A stretch of 41,033 nt of DNA, taken from assembly GCA_030656575.1 (NCBI GenBank), contig JAUSPO010000104.1, positions 1 to 41,033 of the forward strand. The letters run 5' to 3'. Source of the DNA: Bacillota bacterium (lineage in GTDB: Bacteria > Bacillota > Dethiobacteria > DTU022 > UBA8154). The translations under genes and the position numbers were made by a program. Positions within the stretch are counted from its first letter, which is position 1, and every line of letters begins with the position of its first letter. Shown piece after piece: positions 29,164-34,151 of this stretch. The notes under the pieces are model-generated. The model worked only from the letters and a program-made list of their open reading frames with translations. It did no database searches and was not told the DNA's origin.

Positions 29164-30060
29164 TCATTGTTTTAGCCTGCCTGGGTTAATATGGATAAGC
29201 ACATCACCGACTTCTTGCACTGATTCCATAACCACTTCTTTTATGGATAAGGTGATTTCATGTCCTTCATGAACAGATTTTTCCGCATCTATCTCAACTG
29301 CCATATCGACGATGATGTGACGGCCGATGTATCTACCCTTTGTCCATGATATTGCCTGAACACCTTCCACCCCCTCGGCTATTTCGTTAATCCTGGCTAT
29401 CTTTTCTGCCTCAGGAGATGCATCCATGAGGTTTCTTATTGCTTTTAGCAGGATATCAACGGCTATTTTTAAAATCAGCCCCGCTACAAGAATGCCCGCC
29501 AGAGGATCAAAGTATTTTAACCATTCTATGCCGTAGTAACCTCCCATTATGCTTCCAAGAATTCCAAAGAAGGTTCCGATGGAAGAATATGCATCAGCAC
29601 GATGGTCCCAGGCATTGGCAATGATAGACTCGCTGTTTATTTTTTTCCCGATATTATAAGTAACTCTAAACATGATCTCTTTTATGACTATGGAAATAAC
29701 AGCGGCTGCGAGGGCTACAGGGTAGGGGGCAATAAATTCTTGTGAAATGAGAGACTTAATGATACTCATAACGATAAAAAAAGCAGTAATTATCAATATA
29801 AGGGCAACAGATGACGCTGCTATCGCTTCTATTTTGCCATGACCGTACATATGACAGTCGTCTGCGGGTTTTTTGGCGATTTTTAGGCATAAGTAAACTA
29901 CGAGGGTTGCAATTACATCAGAACCTGAATGTAAGGCATCGGCTACCATTGCCTTACTTCCACCTATAAATCCAACTATCCCTTTAAAAATGCTCAGGAG
30001 TATGTTACCTGCTAAACAATACAATGTTATCTTTTCACCCTTACTGTAATCAGTTTGCAC
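29164..30060 (-). CDS. cation diffusion facilitator (CDF) metal exporter
   Basis: CDF proteins export divalent metals in exchange for protons. Six membrane helices and a C-terminal cytoplasmic domain fit 298 residues. By alignment to YiiP, the TM2 metal site reads HxxxD (ALHSGSD) and the TM5 site DxxxD (WDHRAD). PADDCHMYGHGKIEA is the typical TM3 loop. The frame is open to 30126, but that extension overlaps a terminator and riboswitch. GTG 30060, 12 bases after GGAGG (30077-30073), is the likely start. A NiCo riboswitch directly upstream suggests Co/Ni export. It is convergent with the aldolase gene. Confidence 0.9.
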   Translation of the reverse strand: MQTDYSKGEKITLYCLAGNILLSIFKGIVGFIGGSKAMVADALHSGSDVIATLVVYLCLKIAKKPADDCHMYGHGKIEAIAASSVALILIITAFFIVMSIIKSLISQEFIAPYPVALAAAVISIVIKEIMFRVTYNIGKKINSESIIANAWDHRADAYSSIGTFFGILGSIMGGYYGIEWLKYFDPLAGILVAGLILKIAVDILLKAIRNLMDASPEAEKIARINEIAEGVEGVQAISWTKGRYIGRHIIVDMAVEIDAEKSVHEGHEITLSIKEVVMESVQEVGDVLIHINPGRLKQ

Positions 30061-30088
30061 TAATTTAATTAGCCTCCTTTTCTCTAAT

Positions 30089-30132
30089 AAAAAACACCTG
30101 CAAGACTTCTTTAGAAAAAGTCCCACAGGTGT
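30089..30132 (-). terminator. intrinsic terminator controlled by the NiCo riboswitch
   Basis: On the minus strand ACACCTG (30132-30126) pairs with CAGGTGT (30100-30094), and GACTT (30122-30118) with AAGTC (30108-30104) inside it. T6 follows at 30094-30089. The 5' arm overlaps the end of the aptamer, so ligand binding and termination should be mutually exclusive. Confidence 0.85.
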
Positions 30133-30190
30133 GTGTTTCCCTGCTGCCGAAAAGGCCCGACTGACGACGAAAACGTCCGCCTGATCTTGG
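30115..30190 (-). promoter_or_regulatory. NiCo (czcD) riboswitch aptamer
   Basis: The minus-strand leader of the CDF gene carries, in order, CAGGCGG, a GACG-TTTT-CGTC hairpin, GTCAGTCGGGCC-TTTT-CGGCAGCAG, and ACACACCTGTGGGAC. This matches the four-helix NiCo pattern as I remember it: CAG(U/C)CGGGC, GGCA-CAG and CUGUGGGAC blocks. The riboswitch binds Co2+ or Ni2+ and turns on exporter genes by preventing termination. The gene and terminator placement agree. The match is from memory; a covariance search against Rfam NiCo would settle it. Confidence 0.82.
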
Positions 30191-30220
30191 TCATATTAAT
30201 ATTTTATGTTCATTAATGAA

Positions 30221-30250
30221 ATTATAAAACACTGAAATATGGGCTGTCAA
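30221..30250 (-). promoter_or_regulatory. promoter of the NiCo riboswitch-CDF transcript
   Basis: On the minus strand TTGACA (30250-30245) and TATAAT (30226-30221) are both perfect hexamers with 18 bp between them. The predicted start is near 30214, about 25 bases before the aptamer. Confidence 0.85.
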
Positions 30251-30457
30251 TACTATAGACGAAATAAATTTTTGAAAGTAAAATAGAATTAACGGATGTA
30301 TCATACTTTAAATTTTATGCAATAGATCATTACATTGTGACCGAACTGACTTAATATATGGTAAAACTCTTCCCTCAAATTGGTGTTGGCGAGCCTAATC
30401 TTATATTCTTTTATTCATTCGTTCTTTTTTTTAATAGGTAGAATGATAACTTAAATA
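30251..30457. other. AT-rich spacer between the two divergent promoters
   Basis: Sequence between the leftward NiCo promoter and the rightward fluoride promoter. It is AT-rich, has no ORF of note, and no further regulatory motif that I can name. Confidence 0.5.
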
Positions 30458-30486
30458 TTGACTGCAATAGTGGTATGACTTATAAT
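30458..30486 (+). promoter_or_regulatory. promoter of the fluoride riboswitch transcript
   Basis: TTGACT at 30458-30463 and TATAAT at 30481-30486 are separated by 17 bp. The predicted start falls at about 30493, exactly where the aptamer begins. Confidence 0.85.
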
Positions 30487-30493
30487 TAAAAAA

Positions 30494-30552
30494 GGCGATG
30501 GAGCTCGCCAGGGCACCCCCCGAACCGCAGAAATTGCTAATAGCTCCTACCA
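30494..30552 (+). promoter_or_regulatory. fluoride riboswitch (crcB motif)
   Basis: GGCGATGG begins P1, which closes with CGCC at about 30506-30509. AACCGCAGAAATTGCTAAT and AGCTCCTACC follow as in the crcB consensus. The pseudoknot GGAGCT (30500-30505) with AGCTCC (30542-30547) is a perfect match. Fluoride binding stabilises this fold and prevents the adjacent terminator, switching on the antiporter. Confidence 0.95.
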
Positions 30553-30580
30553 AGCATTATTTGGTAGGAGCTATTTTATT
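30539..30580 (+). terminator. terminator of the fluoride riboswitch
   Basis: AATAGCTCCTACC (30539-30551) pairs perfectly with GGTAGGAGCTATT (30563-30575), with T-rich sequence following. The 5' arm includes the aptamer's pseudoknot strand, so the two structures compete. Confidence 0.93.
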
Positions 30581-30600
30581 CACCTTAGGAGGGATGTGTA

Positions 30601-31830
30601 TTGTTATTTAGTCTGTTAATTATCTTCTTTTTAGGGCTGGGTGCAAAGTTTCTCTTTGAGAAAATAAAACTTCCTGGCTTGGTAGGATTGGTGCTGGTGG
30701 GTGTTTTCACCGGCCCTTTCGTTCTGGATATTCTTGAGCCTGACCTGCTTGTTCTCTCAACAGAAATCCGCCTGCTGGCCTTAATTATCATCTTGCTTCG
30801 TGCTGGTTTAGGCCTTGATCGTCAAATATTACGGCGAATCGGGGGAGCAGCAATCAAAATGAGCACTATCCCCGGGCTGTTCGAAGGTGGAACCGTAATG
30901 GTTCTATCTCGCTTTCTTTTGGATTTTTCCTGGATACAGGGAGGAATGTTGGGTTTTATCATTGCAGCCGTTTCACCTGCCGTTGTAGTACCATCTATGT
31001 TGGAGCTGAGAGATCGTGGTTTGGGCATGGATAAGAACATACCTATTTTAGTCCTGGCAGGGGCATCAATCGATGACGTTTTTGCCATCACCTTTTTTTC
31101 TGTATTTCTAGGCATTGCAGGCGGAGCTGCGGCCAAAATCTCACCGTTCATCAACTTTGCAATCGTTCCTCTTGAGATTATGGGAGGTATCCTACTTGGA
31201 TTAACAGTTGGTTATCTGCTTGTACTGCTCTTTAATCGTTATCCGCTACCTCGTGTGGAGCAATTGCTGCTTGTAACGGGAGCAGGAATTGTTGTAACCT
31301 TAATTGGCCAGGCTGCTTCACTGGCAGGATTGCTTGCAGTCATGAGTCTTGGATTTATTCTTCTTGAAAAAGGCAGGGATTATGTTACTCAATTAGAAGA
31401 AAGCCTTAATCACCTTTGGTTGGCTTCATCACTCTTTCTCTTTATTCTCATCGGTGCTGCAGTAAATATACAGGTTGCCTGGCGGGCAGGTGCACTGGGA
31501 ATACTGATTATTGCAGTTGGCTTAGCTGCCCGTTCTTTAGGTGTCTTACTTGCTACTCGGCGCTCCGGACTAACTTGGAACGAACAAAAGTTTTGCGCCA
31601 TTGCATACTTACCTAAGGCTACTGTGCAGGCCGCCATCGGAGGGGTACCATTGGCCATGGGCATCCCCGGTGGAGAAATTATGCTTGCCATTGCAGTCCT
31701 ATCAATAATTATTACGGCACCCATTGGAGCCATAGCTATCATACGATTGGCCCCCTGTTTGCTTAATCAGTGTGAATTAGCGGAAGGAGGGAAATGGAAA
31801 GTTGAAAGTAAGGGAAATGATGACAACTAA
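30601..31830 (+). CDS. CPA-family cation/proton antiporter under fluoride control
   Basis: Monovalent cation:proton antiporter with about 11-12 membrane helices over 409 residues. The paired acidic site is Asp158-Asp159 in AGASIDDVFAI, the DD type. Starts at TTG 30601 behind AGGAGGG. Antiporters are one of the gene classes repeatedly found behind fluoride riboswitches, besides CrcB/Fluc and CLC-F, so a role in fluoride or associated acid stress is likely. It overlaps the CBS-domain gene by 29 bp. The exported ion cannot be read from the sequence. Confidence 0.9.
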   Translation: MLFSLLIIFFLGLGAKFLFEKIKLPGLVGLVLVGVFTGPFVLDILEPDLLVLSTEIRLLALIIILLRAGLGLDRQILRRIGGAAIKMSTIPGLFEGGTVMVLSRFLLDFSWIQGGMLGFIIAAVSPAVVVPSMLELRDRGLGMDKNIPILVLAGASIDDVFAITFFSVFLGIAGGAAAKISPFINFAIVPLEIMGGILLGLTVGYLLVLLFNRYPLPRVEQLLLVTGAGIVVTLIGQAASLAGLLAVMSLGFILLEKGRDYVTQLEESLNHLWLASSLFLFILIGAAVNIQVAWRAGALGILIIAVGLAARSLGVLLATRRSGLTWNEQKFCAIAYLPKATVQAAIGGVPLAMGIPGGEIMLAIAVLSIIITAPIGAIAIIRLAPCLLNQCELAEGGKWKVESKGNDDN

Positions 31831-32263
31831 TCTAATTACAGTAACGGAAGAAAAGACACTGAGGGAAGTAATCCAGCTAATGCTTGAGAAAAACATCAGC
31901 GGCATTCCTGTTGTAGATGGTAATGGAAAGTTGGAAGGAATTGTCAGTGAATGGGATGTCATTCGTCTTAAGCGAAAGCTGCACTTACCAGATTATATAC
32001 AGCTGCTTGAAGCGATGCTAAATAATGCACACCCGGAAGAATTCGATACGGATATTGCTCGATCTCTTGAATTGCTGGTAAAGGATTTTATGACAAAAAA
32101 AGTAATTACTGTCACAGAAAATACCAGTATGGCGGAAGTAACCCGTCTTATGGTGGAACATAAAATAAATCGAATTCCTGTTGTACGGGGGGATAAACTA
32201 ATCGGTATTGTTACACGTCGGGATGCAATACAAGCAATGGGGAAAAATTTGGGGACACAATGA
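31802..32263 (+). CDS. two-CBS-domain protein
   Basis: Small cytosolic protein of 153 residues made of two CBS domains (about 5-60 and 92-150), a Bateman module that binds adenine nucleotides. The repeats start MMTTNLITVTEEKTL and FMTKKVITVTENTS and end GIVSEWDVIRL and GIVTRRDAIQA. TTG start behind AGGAGGG inside the antiporter's 3' end, so the two are coupled. A likely role is to sense energy charge or c-di-AMP/ATP and gate the antiporter, which is inference from overlap and fluoride co-regulation. Confidence 0.9.
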   Translation: MKVREMMTTNLITVTEEKTLREVIQLMLEKNISGIPVVDGNGKLEGIVSEWDVIRLKRKLHLPDYIQLLEAMLNNAHPEEFDTDIARSLELLVKDFMTKKVITVTENTSMAEVTRLMVEHKINRIPVVRGDKLIGIVTRRDAIQAMGKNLGTQ

Positions 32264-32542: not shown

Positions 32543-32917
32543 ATGCAAAATATTAAAGATATATCCCTGGAGATTATATATGCGGTATTGCCTATTACAG
32601 TAGTAGTAATAATACTGCAGTTTACCTTGATTTGGCTGTCATTCGAAGTTTTCTTACAGTTTTTGGTAGGTGTTGTGCTGGTTAGTATTGGATTAATCTT
32701 TTTTCTTACAGGAGTTCATTTAGGTTTACTTCCCATTGGAGAAATGATAGGTTCAACTTTACCAAAAACAGGGAAAATAACGTTGGTGGTATTATTCGCT
32801 TTTTTAATGGGCCTTGTTGTAACTGTAGCTGAACCGGATGTAAGAGTGTTAGCCACTCAGATAGACATTGTATCCCAGGGAGAGGCTCTTCCGAAATCTT
32901 CGATATTTCGCCTGTAG
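32543..32917 (+). pseudogene. DUF1538 membrane protein, C-terminally truncated
   Basis: The 124 residues contain the family core: a first hydrophobic helix pair, GVHLGLLPIGEMIGSTLP, and the FLMGLVVTVAEPDVRVLATQ signature. DUF1538 proteins are normally at least twice this length. The frame stops soon after the AEPD motif. The next bases in another frame (TICIFVSVVGLAVMLTM) could be the continuation of a DUF1538 helix. If so, a frameshift at about 32885-32925 precedes the junction with MATE sequence. The role of the family is not well established; it is thought to be an inner-membrane transporter-like protein. Confidence 0.75.
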
Positions 32918-32928
32918 GCATTAATTGA

Positions 32929-33498
32929 CATTCTGATAAAACAAGGGCTCTAACCATCTGTATCTTTGTCTCTGTCGTTGGTCTTGCAGTAATGCTTACC
33001 ATGGGGTTAGCCCACGGATGTCAGCCTCTTATGGGTTACAGTTACGGTGCTAATAAATACAACCGCTTATTGGAGACTATAAAGAGATCTATTGCTATAG
33101 GTACTATTATGAATACCGTCTTTGCAATCCTTTTTTTCGCATTTTCCGGCTTATTGATTAGAGTGTTTATAAATGATGCTAACGTTATCGATTTAGGAGA
33201 AAAAATAATTAGAGCATTTGTACTGGCCATGCTTTTCTTAGGGATTCAAATGGTACTAATGGTCACGTTTCAATCTTTGGGTAAAACAGTGGAATCCTTG
33301 ATTATATCTCTTGGCAGGCAAGGTTTGTTCTTCATCCCTGCATTGATAATTTTTAGTTCTTTATGGGGATTTTATGGGTTTATCTTCGCCCAGCCTGTTG
33401 CAGATATTGCCACTACATCGCTTTCATTGACACTATTTCTGATTTTGAAGAAAAAACTTCTTATTTCTTCTGAAGAGATAGCAGTAAAGGATGTATAA
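32929..33498 (+). pseudogene. MATE-family efflux transporter, C-terminal remnant
   Basis: Only the C-terminal part of a multidrug/sodium MATE exporter remains, about 168 residues from the first ATG at 32992. GLAHGCQPLMGYSYGANKYNR is the conserved second-half motif, and five hydrophobic helices follow. MATE proteins are about 440-460 residues, so around 60 percent is missing. No ribosome site precedes the ATG. The frame is open back to a TGA at 32926-32928. It abuts the DUF1538 remnant, consistent with one deletion that joined two genes. Confidence 0.8.
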
Positions 33499-33545
33499 TC
33501 GTGGTGGTTCATCCGATCCCAAGCATAGTACAGAGGTGAACTTAA

Positions 33546-34151
33546 TTGGCCACAATCGGTCATATTCTTATTTGTGACGACCAGGCGATCATTCACGAGA
33601 CTATAATTGCATACTTAAAGGCAGATGGATTTACATATGACTCTGCTTATGACGGAGGAGAAGCACTTCGCAAAGCCCTTGATATTAAACCTGATTTAAT
33701 TATTTTGGATCTTATGATGCCCAAAATAAACGGTATTGACGTGTGCCGCGAACTGCGTAAGACCTCGGATATACCTATCATTATGCTCACAGCAAAAGGT
33801 GAGGAGATAGATAGAATCCTCGGGTTGGAACTGGGCGCTGATGACTATATTGTGAAGCCCTTTAGCCCGCGTGAGGTGGTAGCCCGCGTCAAGACGGTTT
33901 TGCGCCGCAGAATACCGGGCAGCAAAGAGATTAAGCCTACACTTCGCTATGACAATCTAGAGATAAATTTTTTTGCATACGAGGTGCGTCTTAACGGCAA
34001 TCTTGTCCCCTGTACGCCAAAAGAAGTAGAGGTACTTTATTTCCTGGCCTCTCATGCGGGGCGTTTTGGTGAAAAGATTTACGTGGAGAGCCAGGAGGAA
34101 AAAGGCAGTACATTTACCTTTACGTTAGCCCGTAAGCCTGCAGCTGCCTGA
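33546..34151 (+). CDS. response regulator-histidine kinase deletion chimera
   Basis: Residues 1-120 are an intact receiver domain: acidic pair Asp11-Asp12, phosphoacceptor Asp55 (LIILDLMMP), Lys104 (KPF). Residues about 133-172 begin an OmpR-type winged helix (LRYDNLEI, CTPKEVEVLYFLASHAGR). Where the recognition helix should follow, the sequence becomes FGEKIYVESQEEKGSTFTFTL, the very end of a histidine-kinase ATPase domain. The frame is maintained. An OmpR-type regulator next to its kinase was evidently fused by an internal deletion at about 34055-34070. DNA binding through the usual recognition helix should be lost. TTG start behind AGAGGTGA. It could still be phosphorylated or simply be a relic. 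Confidence 0.85.
   Translation: MATIGHILICDDQAIIHETIIAYLKADGFTYDSAYDGGEALRKALDIKPDLIILDLMMPKINGIDVCRELRKTSDIPIIMLTAKGEEIDRILGLELGADDYIVKPFSPREVVARVKTVLRRRIPGSKEIKPTLRYDNLEINFFAYEVRLNGNLVPCTPKEVEVLYFLASHAGRFGEKIYVESQEEKGSTFTFTLARKPAAA

Follow-up and report, generated by a model that had tools for sequence, protein, structure and literature searches.

Back-to-back NiCo/czcD and fluoride riboswitches in a Dethiobacteria genome: a probable juxtaposition of two independent ion-resistance units

Two riboswitches of different classes, NiCo/czcD on the minus strand and fluoride on the plus strand, stand back to back in a stretch of 41,033 nucleotides from a bacterium of the class Dethiobacteria (contig JAUSPO010000104.1 of assembly GCA_030656575.1, here genome G000); the whole stretch is referred to as the window. 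The pairing most probably represents two independent and ordinary ion-resistance units that were juxtaposed in one lineage by rearrangement or lateral transfer. Each unit is conserved apart from the other, and the pair is not conserved as a pair. The window's pair is thus a caution against inferring function from adjacency. The initial annotation had described fluoride and Co/Ni-type riboswitches back to back at 30089-30580, each with a near-consensus promoter and about 200 bp apart; these coordinates fit both leaders, and the RNA classes and the promoters were both borne out. The features, in window coordinates, are as follows.

29164-30060, minus strand: CDF-family cation exporter of 298 aa (Pfam), with a GTG start at 30060 read from the sequence
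30132-30094, minus strand: intrinsic terminator of the NiCo leader, 18 pairs and a T tract (fold), which includes the 3' strand of the aptamer
30199-30116, minus strand: NiCo/czcD riboswitch aptamer (Rfam RF02683 covariance match and independent model)
30250-30221, minus strand: sigma-70-like promoter TTGACA-N18-TATAAT, 12/12 in the hexamers (sequence)
30251-30457, no strand: spacer between the two -35 boxes, which are 207 bp apart; presumed junction, without homology to either source lineage
30458-30486, plus strand: sigma-70-like promoter TTGACT-N17-TATAAT, 11/12 in the hexamers (sequence)
30485-30556, plus strand: fluoride riboswitch aptamer (Rfam RF01734 and independent model R1)
30539-30575, plus strand: intrinsic terminator of the fluoride leader, 16 pairs (fold), which overlaps the 3' pseudoknot strand of the aptamer
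30601-31830, plus strand: Na_H_Exchanger antiporter, CPA2/NHA2-like, 409 aa, TTG start (PF00999, E 1.9e-42)
31802-32263, plus strand: tandem CBS-domain protein (PF00571, E 1.3e-38), its gene overlapping that of the antiporter

The CDF half and the antiporter half lead to different sets of nearest relatives. The CDF protein is 69%, 64% and 63% identical to its counterparts in G012, G020 and G004, respectively, three genomes that belong to the window's own family and in each of which the CDF gene stands behind a NiCo RNA, and 55% identical to that of one genome of its order. The leaders of these three genomes and of G031 have the same plan as the window's NiCo leader. The antiporter is closest to proteins from another family within the class (81% identity to G075 and 74% to G087), the best match within its own family being 56% (G008), and the tree places it with G075 and G087 at 99/99. 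The antiporters of G075 and G087 likewise stand behind a fluoride RNA (58 and 29.7 bits) and are followed by a CBS gene, whose product is 72-74% identical to the window's CBS protein and travels with the antiporter; no NiCo RNA was found near them in the 19 kb examined. Since the CDF tree is poorly resolved, a vertical origin of the NiCo-CDF half is suggested mainly by identity.

At the DNA level, similarity on the CDF side covers 29172-30229 at most and extends to NiCo-CDF relatives only, and on the antiporter side it covers 30457-32240 at most and extends to G075 and G087. The blastn blocks end at 30187-30229 on the CDF side and start at 30457-30481 on the antiporter side; 30230-30456 has no DNA similarity to the NiCo-CDF relatives or to G075 and G087. 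In its relatives, each unit stands without the other beside it. Because similarity to each set of relatives stops at 30230-30456, the sequence comparison indicates two cassettes with different nearest relatives that abut in a non-homologous spacer of about 230 bp. The fluoride-antiporter-CBS unit, promoter included, behaves in these alignments as a self-contained cassette. We propose that a NiCo-CDF gene, the presumed resident, was joined to this cassette via rearrangement or lateral transfer; paralogy followed by loss is a possible alternative origin of the halves. The initial annotation had named an arrangement unique to this genome and placed by recent rearrangement as the outcome that would count against its reading. 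The presence of the divergent pair in the window alone among the places searched, the different relatives of the halves and the non-homologous spacer largely agree with that outcome, in its uniqueness and probable rearrangement more than in its recency.

Beyond the antiporter-CBS cassette, 32543-34151 consists of gene fragments: a DUF1538/UmpA-like protein is represented by its N-terminal half and a MATE transporter by its C-terminal part, and an odd-ended response regulator closes in what resembles (by eye) a histidine-kinase tail. Fragments in this position, 3' of the cassette, fit a rearranged place.

The divergent two-riboswitch locus is not conserved in the sampled class and phylum genomes. 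Among 97 genomes of the class, a set without a genus-mate of the window's organism, NiCo RNAs occur in 18 genomes, at one place each, and fluoride RNAs in 14 genomes, at 15 places. Three genomes (G000, G092 and G093) have both riboswitches, which are together in the window alone. The flanks of all 18 NiCo places were searched with the fluoride model, over at least 1.5 kb or to the contig end, and the divergent pair was found at none of the 17 others. In a phylum sample of 398 genomes, NiCo RNAs are present in 99 genomes (111 listed places) and fluoride RNAs in 156. Flanks of about 4 kb, or to contig ends, were searched in the same way at 110 of the 111 places, the window included, with one place (G296:C1:2293332) covered on one side only, minus its first 141 bases. 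At the other phylum places with both sides examined, the divergent pair was again absent (0/109). The search for the same pair in relatives, which the initial annotation had called for, thus came back empty. A reverse search over up to 1.5 kb on each side of 43 fluoride-RNA loci (30 of them drawn from over 150 listed phylum places, the other 13 from the class) gave one clear NiCo match, in the genus g172 (L080). Several of the searched flanks stop at contig ends. The class and phylum scans scored part of the candidates in each genome (for NiCo, 9-53 of hundreds) and so miss weak riboswitches; the fluoride RNA of G087 escaped the class scan and was recovered, at 29.7 bits, by the flank search.

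Several weak matches were set aside as chance. With the fluoride model these were, near NiCo places, L249 (17.8 bits, E 0.037) and L248 (13.8 bits, E 0.61), together with L177 8880-8908 (12.1 bits) and, on the minus strand of the window, 30558-30586 (12.2 bits); with the NiCo model they were L179 5249-5365 (18.6 bits, E 0.002), L004/L103 (15.1 bits) and L110/L034 (12.2 bits).

A fluoride RNA lies near a NiCo RNA at seven phylum places, namely the window and six genomes of g172 (G244, G270, G364, G387, G408 and G429). In six of the seven sampled NiCo-bearing genomes of this genus, NiCo-CDF and fluoride-crcB units are 1.0-2.3 kb apart; in the seventh, G294, no fluoride RNA was found near the NiCo RNA. 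The order, all on one strand, is NiCo RNA, CDF gene, a gap of roughly 50-1,340 bases, fluoride RNA, crcB and a further crcB, and in G364 a promoter-like site of its own precedes the fluoride RNA (Pfam was run on the G364 genes and one G270 gene only). These clusters (L094-L098 and L100; L094 is an example) resemble the window in that RNAs of both classes lie near one another, here within 1.0-2.3 kb. They differ in being tandem, on the same strand and equipped with CrcB, whereas the window's units are divergent and include an antiporter, and the CDF proteins of the two are only distantly related. The g172 cluster is an independent association of the NiCo and fluoride classes.

Such recurrence bears on the proposal that the window holds a selected toxic-ion island, in which metal export and a fluoride response are kept and used together, each RNA sensing its own ion. 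CDF and antiporter families are proton-coupled as a rule, and fluoride would, on this proposal, disturb both divalent-metal and pH balance; the independent linkage in g172 might mean that linkage is favoured. Operons with fluoride exporters also hold divalent cation transporters more often than expected, and antiporters, which are tied to pH homeostasis, are the next commonest fluoride-riboswitch genes after the exporters (PMC11139923, accessible text). However, the divergent pair occurs in 1 of 97 class genomes and 1 of 398 phylum genomes, in both cases the window itself, and the 45 genomes with both riboswitch classes do not clearly exceed the expected 38.8. Chance alone would give about 0.14 pairs within 2.5 kb in the other 44 of these genomes (P of at least one about 0.13), so that one further lineage is weak evidence. 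As the pair was the reason for choosing the window, the linkage statistics rest on that one lineage, g172, and are not convincing. Linkage of NiCo and fluoride riboswitches can recur, yet it is too rare for proof of coupling, and we consider a selected island unlikely. The initial annotation's suggestion of a toxic-ion resistance locus is a fair description in that both targets are ion exporters or antiporters, but with the divergent pair found in the window alone among the places searched, there is little to favour a dedicated locus.

The literature searched, mostly without subscription papers, yielded no description of NiCo and fluoride riboswitches as a divergent pair. A Listeria plasmid has both fluoride and NiCo riboswitches, on separate contigs (PMC9484302, accessible text). 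A review of tandem riboswitches, in the part available, counts 783 NiCo riboswitches with no tandems and places fluoride and NiCo among the non-tandem classes (PMC9481103). The window resembles the architectures treated there in having two riboswitches near each other, but its pair lies in two separate transcripts and is hence no tandem in the sense of the accessible text.

By sequence and structure, the plus-strand RNA can be assigned to the fluoride riboswitch class. The aptamer scores 50 bits against RF01734 (gathering score 34; E 4.7e-11 over the window) and 58.6 bits against R1, a window-free model of 29 other RNAs. The leader folds at -36.3 kcal/mol (z -5.2), which none of 200 shuffles equalled, and the CUCC pseudoknot strand, read from the sequence rather than folded, falls inside the terminator at 30539-30575, so that aptamer and terminator would exclude one another. 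Folded alone, the two aptamers of the window are no more stable than shuffled sequence (z 0.40 and -0.03), as may be expected when a pseudoknot or bound metal lies outside the fold calculation. Since the terminator of each leader takes in the 3' part of its own aptamer, both riboswitches are predicted to be ON switches. Binding of Mg-complexed fluoride to the plus-strand RNA would block the terminator and allow transcription into the genes for the NHA2-like cation/proton antiporter and the CBS protein. Their role would be repair of pH or sodium balance in fluoride stress, export being less likely. Matches of mir-246 to this terminator reflect a strong hairpin and are far under the cut-off of that family. 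At L177:11815-11857, about 1.7 kb from the real one, the hairpin of the fluoride-leader terminator recurs as a stray copy (44 bases, 89%) with no recognisable aptamer.

Along its whole length the antiporter aligns with NHA2 of the PDB (E 2.8e-46), the Asp-Asp pair included, in keeping with a CPA2/NHA2 protein; this pair marks electrogenic CPA2 antiporters. The full-length match and the Asp-Asp pair are what it shares with mammalian NHA2 (SLC9B2) and bacterial CPA2 antiporters. It differs in being a bacterial protein behind a fluoride riboswitch, with a CBS partner, and in scoring under every NCBIfam antiporter cut-off.

Neither CrcB (PF02537) nor CLC (PF00654) was detected in the window's 99%-complete genome; 10 and 12 of 14 controls, respectively, were positive. 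CrcB is present in 4 of 97 class genomes, a count too low for testing whether antiporters replace it. Of the 15 class fluoride RNAs, 12 precede Na_H_Exchanger genes (some broken, truncated or weak tblastn matches only), one precedes two crcB genes (G036) and two (L032 and L033) have no target assigned. The genome's fluoride sensing, as far as it is detectable by sequence, would be wired to antiporter genes only. The window's leader therefore resembles known RF01734 (crcB) riboswitches before Na+/H+ antiporters in its aptamer above the cut-off, the pseudoknot strand common to the terminator and the antiporter target, and differs in a genome without detectable CrcB or CLC and in the CBS-domain protein that follows the antiporter. 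How antiporters confer fluoride tolerance becomes a testable question in such a near-complete genome. A more ambitious account would see an ion-stress module with two inputs, both read by RNA alone, its units repeatedly united since fluoride stress releases or unbalances cytosolic Fe2+, Co2+ or Ni2+, with the NHA2-like antiporter as the genome's only detectable fluoride response; we hold this account to be improbable.

A second fluoride RNA of the genome (C27:7035-7113, 34.9 bits) precedes a truncated Na_H_Exchanger frame of 179 aa. At the corresponding locus (L101:4036-5416), a hexapeptide acyltransferase-like gene comes after the truncated antiporter, and the whole has the appearance of a decayed copy. 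The fluoride-riboswitch antiporters at L102:841-2484 and L103:3643-5310 carry a universal stress protein domain fused at the C terminus, in place of the separate CBS protein seen with others.

The 801 bases scanned hold 7 promoter-like sites, where shuffled sequence gives 2.7 +/- 1.7. The plus-strand promoter has identical hexamers and spacing before the fluoride RNA of G075 (DNA 72% similar), and its predicted transcription start lies at about the first base of the first helix of the fluoride aptamer (30494). Under the preferred reading of two juxtaposed units, each would have its own promoter and work alone. Two strong promoters pointing apart across 207 bp could instead be coupled through supercoiling or a common regulator, with each ion tuning both genes, but the spacer is without homology in the relatives compared and the promoter hexamers of the fluoride unit are retained where it stands without the NiCo unit, which makes shared control very improbable.

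The minus-strand RNA scores 34.1 bits against RF02683, under the gathering score of 37, and was detected there by E-value only (9.6e-6; 8.4e-6 over the whole genome). Against a covariance model aligned from 25 NiCo RNAs of other genomes, the window excluded, it reaches 49.4 bits (E 3.1e-15 over the window), and nothing else in the window matches this model at E up to 10. The aptamer keeps CGGGCC, GGCAGCAGG and GUGGGAC, and the conserved guanines of the GGGC and GGGAC segments are present in the alignment, in which a few pairs are mismatched. Conserved guanines are metal ligands in this class (PMC7689651, accessible text); the matching of the guanine numbering in that paper to these segments is our own reading. 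The leader has a minimum-energy fold of -35.7 kcal/mol (z -3.5; 0/200 shuffles equal). By its sequence and structure, the RNA would be placed in the NiCo/czcD class. The score of 34.1 against 37 and the mismatched pairs might suggest a decayed or chance look-alike and no true metal riboswitch, but this is hardly credible beside the kept core segments, the downstream CDF gene, the consensus promoter and terminator and the same leader plan in G012, G020, G004 and G031, and a spurious call is ruled out by the 49.4 bits of the window-free model.

A Shine-Dalgarno sequence, AAGGAGG, lies at 30079-30073 before the CDF gene. Its product, taken as the longer frame to 30126, carries Cation_efflux (PF01545, E 4.5e-46) and ZT_dimer (PF16916) domains, as expected of a CDF protein, and its PDB relatives are FieF/YiiP (E 7e-20). 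The best specific NCBIfam relatives, the magnetosome proteins MamB (239.7/350 bits) and MamM (211.1/350), are well below the cut-offs, so the substrate cannot be read off. The term Co/Ni-sensing used in the initial annotation agrees with the NiCo/czcD class, but the literature on the metal of this class is split between Co/Ni and Fe(II), and inside cells Fe(II) may be sensed at least as much as Co/Ni (PMC11477304 and PMC7689651, accessible text of both). Fe2+, Co2+ or Ni2+ bound to the minus-strand RNA would block the terminator at 30132-30094, transcription would enter the CDF gene and the metal would be pumped out.

Compared with RF02683, the window's NiCo RNA shares the conserved G-rich core, a terminator overlapping the 3' end of the aptamer and a downstream CDF gene, and differs in a score just below the gathering cut-off and in shortened helices, as in its family relatives. 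Because 4 of the 18 class matches, all four genuine-looking, score below the RF02683 gathering score, annotation at this cut-off undercounts NiCo RNAs in the class. The cut-off is conservative for the window's clade, where it loses likely real members.
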